Shown one piece after another: positions 39,829-42,753 of a stretch of 64,000 bases of DNA. A program made the position numbers and the translations under genes. How positions within the stretch are numbered: position 1 is the first letter of the stretch; the number at the start of each line of letters is the position of its first letter. The stretch is taken from NCBI RefSeq assembly GCF_900167375.1, contig NZ_FUWY01000005.1, positions 124,001-188,000 of the forward strand, in the 5' to 3' direction. Source of the DNA: Anaerorhabdus furcosa. GTDB lineage: Bacteria > Bacillota_I > Bacilli_A > Erysipelotrichales > Erysipelotrichaceae. Under the pieces are notes generated by a model, which made no database searches, was not told where the DNA came from, and saw only the letters and a list, made by a program, of their open reading frames with translations.

Positions 39829-39878
39829 CAATCAAAAGATAGATTGTGGTAAACTATATAAAGAGTAGGAGGATGCAA

Positions 39879-40667
39879 ATGAAACGATTTTGTTTAATAC
39901 TTGTGGCATGCCTTTTATTTGGCTGTGCACAATCCACTCAACCACTAGAAGAAAGAATTCAAAGCGAATTTGAATTTGTTAATACTTTAAAGACAGTAGA
40001 TGGTGATAATAGAAAAGATTTTTATTCTTATTATATTGAACCAAGTGTAGGTAGAGTATCATCAAATCCAAGTAATAATATCTTTTTGAAAGATGGAGTT
40101 CAATTTGTCATGAACTTAAATGTTTCAAAGATTATTAGCGAGAAGTATTATACCGATGCACTTACGGGTAATGATGTTGCTACAAAAGATAATTTATTAT
40201 TTGAAATTGAAGGTCAGTATGATGATAGTTTATTGAATAGTTATGATTATCGTTGTCAAGTTTATCAATATGAAAATATGTATATGTTATTGCTAGAAAC
40301 ACAGTATATGAATTTCTATACTGTTGCAAATGCGAATCAATTACCGACCATTGCAGGAGAAATGTTGAAAATTGCACGTACAATTCGTGTAAATCAAGAA
40401 GAGATTATTTCTGCTTATTCTTCTAAGGAAGCTATACAGTATAAGAAAGAAGCATTGAACTTATTTGAAGTAGCTGTTCCTGAAAATGGTAGAGTTGATG
40501 AAATGATAACTGATAAAACAAATACGGGTGATAGTACGGGTGATAATGCAGGTGGTATGACAGATGATTTCTATCAATCGGATGATTTTGGAAGTAAGAT
40601 TCCTACTGCTTCACCAACACAAGATCCAAATGGAGATTATGCCTCAGATGATTTTGGAACTGAGTAA
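39879..40667 (+). CDS. Lipoprotein of unknown function with SDDFG repeats
   Basis: A 262-residue lipoprotein with lipobox LLFGC at Cys17. I do not recognise the family. The mature protein has a mixed alpha/beta globular region (about 20-200) and an acidic, disordered tail with two SDDFG motifs (near 232 and 257) and a run of Gly/Asp/Thr. Strong AGGAGG precedes the ATG at 39879; the upstream reading from 39846 would add 11 residues without a signal sequence. It occupies the place where B. subtilis has ytp genes between trmB and sftA. Confidence 0.75.
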   Translation: MKRFCLILVACLLFGCAQSTQPLEERIQSEFEFVNTLKTVDGDNRKDFYSYYIEPSVGRVSSNPSNNIFLKDGVQFVMNLNVSKIISEKYYTDALTGNDVATKDNLLFEIEGQYDDSLLNSYDYRCQVYQYENMYMLLLETQYMNFYTVANANQLPTIAGEMLKIARTIRVNQEEIISAYSSKEAIQYKKEALNLFEVAVPENGRVDEMITDKTNTGDSTGDNAGGMTDDFYQSDDFGSKIPTASPTQDPNGDYASDDFGTE

Positions 40668-40692
40668 TGAATAAATAAAAGGAGAAAACACT

Positions 40693-41433
40693 ATGAAAAA
40701 GTTAATGGGCTTATTATTTGAAGAGGAAGAAGTAGTTGAAGAGGAAGAAGTATTTGAAGAACAAATTTCGACACCTTTACCATTAAAAAGAGAAGAAAAG
40801 AAAGTTGTTCAACAACCTAAAAGACAAGTACAACCTCAAGCACAACAAGTTGTTCAACAACCTAAGCCTTTATTATCAAGTGAATCGGTAGATGGTTTAA
40901 ATATTCCTAATCCTCATGCTAGAGTATTAGTCGAAGAACCTAAGCCAGAATCAAAGAAAATTAGTATGACAATTGATGATTTAGTTGAAGTTAAACCAGT
41001 TGTAAAACAACATGAAGCACCAGCACAAGTATCTAAAAAGAAACAAATGCAAACGGGCTATGAATTTACACCTGTCATTAGTCCTATTTTTGGGGTGGAT
41101 GAAAAAGATGCTGAAGCAGTTATTCCAACAGCTCCTAAAAAGAAAATAGGAGATAGTCGCATTGGTACAATTATTTCACCAATGTATGGTGTGGATAAAA
41201 CAGCTGAGCCAGATACAACAAAATTAGAAACAAGCAAAACTCACAAAGCAACTGAAACTGAAATAAAAGCTGAAAGAGATGTGATCAATTTAACACTTGA
41301 TGATATTTTAGCTAGAACAGCAGCTTTATCGGGCAGAAAAAATGAGATGGAAGAAATTGAAGAAGTTGAATATACTGAGAAAAAAGTCATTAATAACCGC
41401 AATATGAGTTTATTTGATGATGGTGAAGAATAG
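40693..41433 (+). CDS. Disordered acidic protein with two ISP(I/M)(F/Y)GVD motifs, upstream of murC
   Basis: A 246-residue protein with no signal peptide or membrane helix and strong disorder. It has a Glu-rich N-terminus, two VVQQPK segments (38-43 and 53-58), TIDDL (93-97) and TLDDI (201-205) repeats, and two motifs ISPIFGVD (129-136) and ISPMYGVD (161-168). SPIYG-like motifs are, to my recollection, found in the disordered N-terminal region of the DNA translocase SftA of Bacilli, whose gene lies beside murC in B. subtilis. No FtsK-type ATPase is present here. A cell-division scaffold is a hypothesis only. It begins 25 bases after the lipoprotein and ends 12 bases before murC. Confidence 0.7.
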   Translation: MKKLMGLLFEEEEVVEEEEVFEEQISTPLPLKREEKKVVQQPKRQVQPQAQQVVQQPKPLLSSESVDGLNIPNPHARVLVEEPKPESKKISMTIDDLVEVKPVVKQHEAPAQVSKKKQMQTGYEFTPVISPIFGVDEKDAEAVIPTAPKKKIGDSRIGTIISPMYGVDKTAEPDTTKLETSKTHKATETEIKAERDVINLTLDDILARTAALSGRKNEMEEIEEVEYTEKKVINNRNMSLFDDGEE

Positions 41434-41445
41434 GAGAAATTGACT

Positions 41446-42753
41446 ATGATTTATTTTATAGGGATTAAAGGTACTGGAATGTCTGCATTAGCGTGTATTC
41501 TTCATGACTTAGGTGAAGAAGTAGCGGGAAGTGATTTATCGAAACATTTCTTTACCGAAGAACCTTTAATCGCTAGAAATATTCAAATCGATGAATTCAA
41601 TCAAAATAATATAAAGGATAATATGACAGTAATTATTGGAAATGCTTTTGGTGAAGACTTTGAAGAAGTTATCGCAGCTCGAAGTAATCCAACTATTACC
41701 TGTTATCGATATCATGAATATCTAGGTAGTTTAATGTCTAGATATATTTCAATTAGTGTAGCAGGAAGTCATGGTAAAACAACAACGACAGGGATGTTGT
41801 CTGCGATGATGGATACTGTGTTTCCAACAGGATACTTAATTGGTGATGGAACTGGAGTGATTCATGAAGATAGTAAATACTTGTGTGTTGAATCATGTGA
41901 ATATAGACGCCATTTCTTAGCATATAAACCTGATTATGCAATCATCACAAATGTTGAAATTGACCATGTCGATTACTTTAAATCGACAGAAGACTATCGC
42001 CTTGCTTATGAGCAGTTTTCAAATAACATCAAAAAAACATGCATGATCTATGGTGATGATGAAGAAGCTAGAAAGCTAGATTTAGCGTGTGATCACCTTT
42101 GGTATGGTGAGGGTGAAGATAATGATTTAAGAGCTATCAATGTTGTTGAAAGTACAACAGGTATTGAATTTGACGTAATCTTTAAAGGTGAATTTCAATA
42201 TCGTTATCAACTCCCTTTTGTTGGAAGACACTTGCTGTGGAATTCACTTGCGGTAATTGGTATTGGTATGTTAGAGGAATTAACACCTGAGCAAATAGAA
42301 AAGGGTCTTAGTTCATTTAAAGGAGTTAAACGTCGCTTTGTAGTTGAAGAAGTTGGGAATAATGTGTTTATCGATGATTATGCTCATCATCCAACAGAGG
42401 TTTCAATTACAATTGATGCAGCACGAAAAAGATATCCTAATAAAAAATTAATTGCGATTTTTAAACCTCATCGTGTATCTCGTGTTTTCCATTTTGCGGA
42501 TCAATTCGCTACTGCACTAGAAAAAGCGGATGAAGTTTATCTTTGTGATTTTACAAGTATTGATGATAAAGAAGATGGTATTGATATCAATATAAGCTAC
42601 CTTCAAAATAGAATTCCTGCATCAAAAATACTTACAGAAGATGATGCTGGTGCTAAAATTTTAGCTCAAGAGGAACCAGCAGTTTACCTATTTATGTCGA
42701 GTAAAGACATTTATGGATTAGCAAACAAAGTAAAGCGCTATCAAAATTCTTGA
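41446..42753 (+). CDS. murC: UDP-N-acetylmuramate--L-alanine ligase
   Basis: A 435-residue Mur ligase adding L-Ala to UDP-MurNAc. The Rossmann-like start is FIGIKGTGMSALA, the ATP site is AGSHGKTTTTGML, followed by NVEIDHVDYF and the C-terminal IDDYAHHPTE. The ATG at 41446 is chosen; the TTG at 41440 is only two codons upstream and lies closer to GGAG than usual. First committed step of the stem peptide that the van enzymes later modify. Confidence 0.95.
   Translation: MIYFIGIKGTGMSALACILHDLGEEVAGSDLSKHFFTEEPLIARNIQIDEFNQNNIKDNMTVIIGNAFGEDFEEVIAARSNPTITCYRYHEYLGSLMSRYISISVAGSHGKTTTTGMLSAMMDTVFPTGYLIGDGTGVIHEDSKYLCVESCEYRRHFLAYKPDYAIITNVEIDHVDYFKSTEDYRLAYEQFSNNIKKTCMIYGDDEEARKLDLACDHLWYGEGEDNDLRAINVVESTTGIEFDVIFKGEFQYRYQLPFVGRHLLWNSLAVIGIGMLEELTPEQIEKGLSSFKGVKRRFVVEEVGNNVFIDDYAHHPTEVSITIDAARKRYPNKKLIAIFKPHRVSRVFHFADQFATALEKADEVYLCDFTSIDDKEDGIDINISYLQNRIPASKILTEDDAGAKILAQEEPAVYLFMSSKDIYGLANKVKRYQNS

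Follow-up and report, generated by a model that had tools for sequence, protein, structure and literature searches.

A motor-less, disordered protein encoded beside murC in Anaerorhabdus furcosa is probably the detached N-terminal arm of an SftA-type translocase

The open reading frame (ORF) at positions 40693-41433 of the window, that is, of the whole 64,000-nucleotide stretch of Anaerorhabdus furcosa DNA that was analysed, very probably encodes the N-terminal arm of an SftA translocase, detached by loss of the motor and with its characteristic box duplicated. SftA (YtpS) is the soluble septum-associated FtsK-like translocase of Bacilli, and its chromosomal slot is the one in which the window protein is encoded. 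We favour this origin because the slot, the N-terminal helix followed by an acidic run and the extended SPxxG box are held in common, and because the genome lacks an SftA motor, the boxes are under purifying selection and a relative with a dead motor was found. The slot, the N-terminus, the box, the missing motor and the dead-motor relative also bear out the suggestion of the first-pass annotation that this was a detached SftA linker. That an SftA origin goes together with a general role as an adaptor of the Z-ring seems to us moderately likely.

The ORF is on the forward strand and encodes 246 amino acids; direct reading of the sequence confirmed its coordinates, its ATG at 40693, its ribosome-binding site and its stop codon at 41431-41433. 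A GGAG upstream of murC overlaps this stop codon, suggesting that murC probably starts at ATG 41446 and not at the listed TTG 41440. The gene order, trmB-lipoprotein-ORF-murC-ytxG-like-ytxH-like-ccpA-tyrS, was as read in the first pass; the identities of trmB and murC were confirmed, and the ytxG- and ytxH-like ORFs, which had no Pfam match, are named from their position and look. The ORF product had no match in Pfam, NCBIfam, PHROGs or PADLOC, and neither the family profile nor box 1 found a match in the PDB. The features referred to below are the following:

40680..40684, + strand: AGGAG ribosome-binding site of the ORF (direct sequence reading)
40693..41433, + strand: disordered, motor-less, probably SftA-derived protein of 246 aa (family profile, model, synteny)
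40693..40719, + strand: short amphipathic helix at the N-terminus, MKKLMGLLF, preceding an acidic run (alignment; model, helix at residues 2-8)
40969..40983, + strand: TIDDL box, residues 93-97 (alignment; moderately conserved)
41059..41094, + strand: box 1, YEFTPVISPIFG, residues 123-134, common to SftA, aromatic at -7
41158..41190, + strand: box 2, RIGTIISPMYG, residues 156-166, a second copy that has no aromatic at -7
41293..41337, + strand: TLDDILARTAALSGR, predicted helix at about residues 201-215 (alignment; pLDDT block mean 78, the most confident part of the model)
41401..41421, + strand: C-terminal box NMSLFDD, residues 237-243, which in about half of the family takes a QxxLF form like the clamp motif
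41446..42753, + strand: murC, its ribosome-binding site overlapping the stop codon of the ORF (identity confirmed)

The lipoprotein gene located upstream of the ORF (39846-40667) encodes two C-terminal SDDFG repeats and lies approximately where DUF1444 is found in Bacillales. Small lipoproteins like it are encoded before the SPxxG gene in further genomes of family f1 and in family f12.

The AlphaFold2 model, built with eleven relatives, had a mean pLDDT of 52 and helices only at residues 2-8 and 202-215, according to which the ORF product is a disordered protein. The two ISP(I/M)(F/Y)GVD motifs that had been pointed out are present (ISPIFGVD, residues 129-136, and ISPMYGVD, 161-168), as is the TIDDL/TLDDI pair (TLDDI at residues 201-205). 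The two VVQQPK copies also exist (residues 38-43 and 53-58), but the repeat is missing from the relatives and was therefore set aside. The conserved N-terminal amphipathic helix MKKLMGLLFEEEE and the C-terminal xxSLFD box had been overlooked. The family consensus consisted of an N-terminal MxKKLxxLLFEEEE, box 1 (YEFxPVISPIFG), box 2 (GTVISPIYG), an SLDDIL helix and a C-terminal SLFDD. Two SPxxG boxes were found in 49 of the 54 dissimilar relatives, whereas composition-preserving shuffles never had them (mean 0.00). Of 49 members, 47 had an aromatic Y or F at -7 of box 1. An SLDDL-type box occurred in 26 of the 54 (shuffled mean, 0.42).

A homologue was detected in 16 of 60 relatives with a single-sequence search, and with a 20-sequence profile in 244 of the 272 genomes of the same family, or 143 of the 152 of good quality. 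At least one of the genomes counted as negative (G012) carries a diverged copy between ytpR and murC. Other in-frame SP[IM][FY]G words in the A. furcosa genome fell within a membrane protein or within frames that were short or improbable, and no second disordered carrier was found among them.

When codon changes were counted in two sets of close relatives, with overlapping pairs summed, 3 of 59 changed codons inside the boxes were nonsynonymous versus 209 of 454 outside, showing that the boxes are under strong purifying selection. A decaying, functionless sftA pseudogene that persists inside the operon would agree with an alignment in which most of the protein length varies freely in sequence, and with a model in which no folded domain is left. 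However, this selection on the boxes, a reading frame that is intact in nearly all genomes of the family, and a second box that was duplicated and kept 32-39 residues after the first one make such decay a very improbable explanation.

The position of the ORF between ytpR/trmB and murC/ytxG is that of sftA. In Anoxybacillus and Listeria, whose loci were taken from chromosome-like segments of a plasmid collection, the order was thioredoxin, DUF1444, ytpR, sftA, murC and DUF948, with one extra gene separating sftA from murC in Anoxybacillus and further extra genes after murC in this comparison. Within the class of the window, sftA is directly upstream of murC in families f9 and f13, and in f1 a short motor-less protein occupies the sftA slot. 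The placement of the ORF at the sftA position in the first pass was supported by the synteny in Anoxybacillus and Listeria and in f9 and f13. In two other families a motor-less SPxxG protein is encoded between trmB-thioredoxin and acpS (f2) or between trmB-lipoprotein and ytxG-ytxH-tyrS (f12), with murC elsewhere in both, indicating that the slot is that of sftA rather than that of murC.

This bears on a different explanation, in which the protein, disordered and dedicated to MurC, would act as a tether and bring this cytoplasmic peptidoglycan-precursor ligase to the division site. The ORF adjoins murC and their translation signals overlap, and three assemblies from a single genus (G032, G577 and G578) have the arm and MurC joined in one reading frame, the complete fusions measuring 645 and 667 aa:

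L145, 2910-4844: arm-MurC fusion
L143, 2739-4739: arm-MurC fusion
L144, 3265-4662: arm-MurC fusion, cut by the contig end

These fusions show that the arm can be joined to a different enzyme. Nevertheless, they are limited to that genus and have lost the C-terminal box, and the gene remains in its slot after murC has moved (G031, f2 and f12), so that linkage to murC is not constant, which argues against a MurC tether as the general function. The box is, moreover, retained in the SftA of families without a detectable MurC. We therefore consider a dedicated MurC partner improbable, and an SftA origin the preferred reading.

The feature shared most clearly with SftA is the box [YF]x4-hydrophobic-SP[IV][FY]G, which is present as a single copy near the N-terminus of soluble SftA-type translocases. 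An SPxxG box was located near the N-terminus in 29 of the 30 best SftA-type loci, whereas it was seen in none of the TM-type FtsKs examined nor in the SpoIIIE controls (Listeria, B. velezensis and Cytobacillus). SftA N-termini lacking such SPIYG-like motifs had been proposed as a refutation, and the result went the other way. In the class of the window, soluble SftA-type proteins of many families carry one F[IV]SP[IL]FG box, mostly near residue 45, with variants in f13 (SPI[ST]G) and f9 (SPMRG). The Bacillales form is PSPVYG and that of Listeria PSPVYA; the N-terminus and box region are MNWLKRLIRYFFQEE and RPFRPTEVPSPVYG in Anoxybacillus SftA, and MGWFKDFFFGDMDEE and RPFTATDVPSPVYA in Listeria SftA. 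The family HMM, run over whole genomes, matched exactly the SPxxG box in the SftA-type ORFs of four genomes (G200, G213, G177 and G079).

The likeness extends beyond the core of the motif. With windows cut around the motif, a choice that favours the core, the flanks matched those of SftA in a column permutation (p = 0.0005), driven by the -7 aromatic and the -1 hydrophobic residue, and hhalign gave 92.9% against SftA versus 0.1% against TM-FtsK linkers. Against just three Bacillales SftA sequences, the profile match was weak (16%). The -7 aromatic is found also in Bacillales SftA and in most SftA of the Acholeplasma-like type; because box 2 is devoid of it, the duplication probably started from box 1, with box 2 as the derived copy. 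Like SftA, the window protein has an N-terminal amphipathic helix with an acidic run, resembling the N-terminus of Anoxybacillus SftA, followed by the box and by a sequence of disordered linker character, and no TM helices were present in this N-terminal region. It differs from SftA in having no alpha, beta and gamma motor domains, two boxes instead of one, an extra TLDDIL helix and the C-terminal SLF box. As the box held in common spans only about 12 residues of disordered sequence, homology rests on synteny plus motif and not on fold, and convergence on a short motif at a single locus is formally an alternative to it.

Neither PF01580 nor the alpha and gamma domains of the SftA motor were found in the ORF with Pfam and NCBIfam, in agreement with the earlier remark that it has no ATPase. 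The only PF01580 proteins of the A. furcosa genome were one TM FtsK and one EssC-like protein, so that an SftA motor was absent from it. This FtsK has 747 aa and 4 TM helices, and in a tree of 53 translocases it was placed in the TM clade, separated from soluble SftA by a split with 100/99 support. The 4-TM FtsK/SpoIIIE proteins share their superfamily with SftA and are likewise septal DNA translocases, but they form a different clade, and they differ from the window protein in their membrane domain as well as in the box. In one genome of family f13 (G112; L134, 1933-3633), an SftA-like protein encoded directly upstream of murC has retained the N-terminus and an SPISG box and has lost Walker A, Walker B and the alpha domain; this dead motor is one possible step towards a motor-less arm. 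The EssC-like protein (L002, on G000:C5) is a type VII secretion ATPase.

The septal localisation of B. subtilis SftA is reported to depend on FtsZ/SepF (PMC11790237, PMC5357621), and the first of these papers describes its recruitment to the Z-ring with the support of SepF and FtsA (PMC11790237). FtsZ was present in all 65 genomes surveyed, and SepF in every sampled motif-bearing genome except G032, an 84%-complete MAG. The FtsA model found nothing, or only frames of MreB or DnaK size, in eight families (f4, f6, f11, f14, f15, f17, f20 and f21) where SftA nonetheless has the box in most cases; this phylogenetic profile led us to reject FtsA as a general, universal docking partner. From co-occurrence, SepF is the favoured partner and FtsZ a possible one, although the co-occurrence of SepF is also explained by shared ancestry, and SepF-bearing families without the box were also found (f5, f7 and f10, with f18 examined in part). 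We give slightly less than an even chance to docking of the window protein on SepF or FtsZ. The role of septal scaffold or hub proposed in the first pass is consistent with the co-occurrence of SepF and with the published recruitment of SftA to the Z-ring (PMC11790237). Two SepF matches lie close together at G017:C9:9690-10370.

The C-terminal box raises the question of a second partner. QxxLF was present within the last 70 residues of 26 of the 54 dissimilar members, and Q.[STND]LF or its six-residue form in 31 of the 54, versus 0.34 in shuffles, with forms such as QISLFG, QFSLFGD, QLNLFDD and QNLSLFDD in many of them. QL[S/D]LF or QxxLF is the published sliding-clamp motif, which PolC carries at its C-terminus (PMC12309361), and in most cases the PolC of the same genomes had a C-terminal NQLSLF or NQMSLF, so that the [QN]xSLF of the family has nearly the same letters as this tail. 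It could be proposed that a C-terminal clamp-binding motif took the place of the DNA-contacting SftA motor, the arm reaching DnaN on newly replicated DNA near the septum and thereby tying the division ring to the replication clamp. Unlike PolC and other DnaN partners, however, the protein is not a polymerase or a repair enzyme, its box is followed by acidic residues, and the first position, which matters for binding (PMC12309361), is not always Q, being N in 12 members and E in 8. The window protein itself has NMSLF, which weakens the clamp reading for it, and neither the MurC fusions nor the f2 and f12 proteins have the box. We thus regard a clamp-binding replacement of the motor as rather unlikely, and hold as similarly doubtful the fuller proposal that a DNA motor once active at the septum was turned into an adaptor without a motor, with its two SPI[FY]G boxes on the division ring and a C-terminal QxxLF box on the replication sliding clamp. 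Such an adaptor, if real, would couple cytokinesis directly to replication in these bacteria by means of a protein.

Returning to the SftA arm, we propose that the alpha-beta-gamma motor would have been lost in ancestors of the family of the window, leaving the N-terminal arm at the sftA locus, and that the role of chromosome motor would remain with the 4-TM FtsK. From the comparisons above we infer a flexible adaptor of the division ring, localised at the septum, in which the N-terminal helix would touch the membrane, the SPI[FY]G boxes would dock on a Z-ring protein (most likely SepF, next FtsZ), having two of them would provide avidity, and the C-terminal segments (TLDDIL helix and SLF box) would hold a second partner, which in QxxLF members may be the clamp DnaN.

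How soluble SftA is targeted to the Z-ring is known as far as the support of SepF and FtsA; no docking motif appeared in the accessible portions of the literature searched, and a search for SPIYG returned nothing relevant. In these gut bacteria, of the Erysipelotrichaceae, the family would be a natural isolation of the flexible SftA docking arm, showing which residues are kept, and so a natural route to finding what this arm binds; it predicts a partner common to organisms without FtsA. It would also be a documented case in which an ATPase gene loses its motor and its disordered arm persists as a separate protein.

Two further motif-bearing proteins were observed. Family f12 (L068, L070 and L074) has, outside the trmB-tyrS slot, another SPxFG protein, whose N-terminus contains a membrane helix and whose C-terminal segment reads EIRKTNEFL..LKEL.KKLD. 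In a genome of family f5 (G184), whose FtsK has no box, a 361-aa protein with VISPLYG is encoded at L066, 2028-3110.
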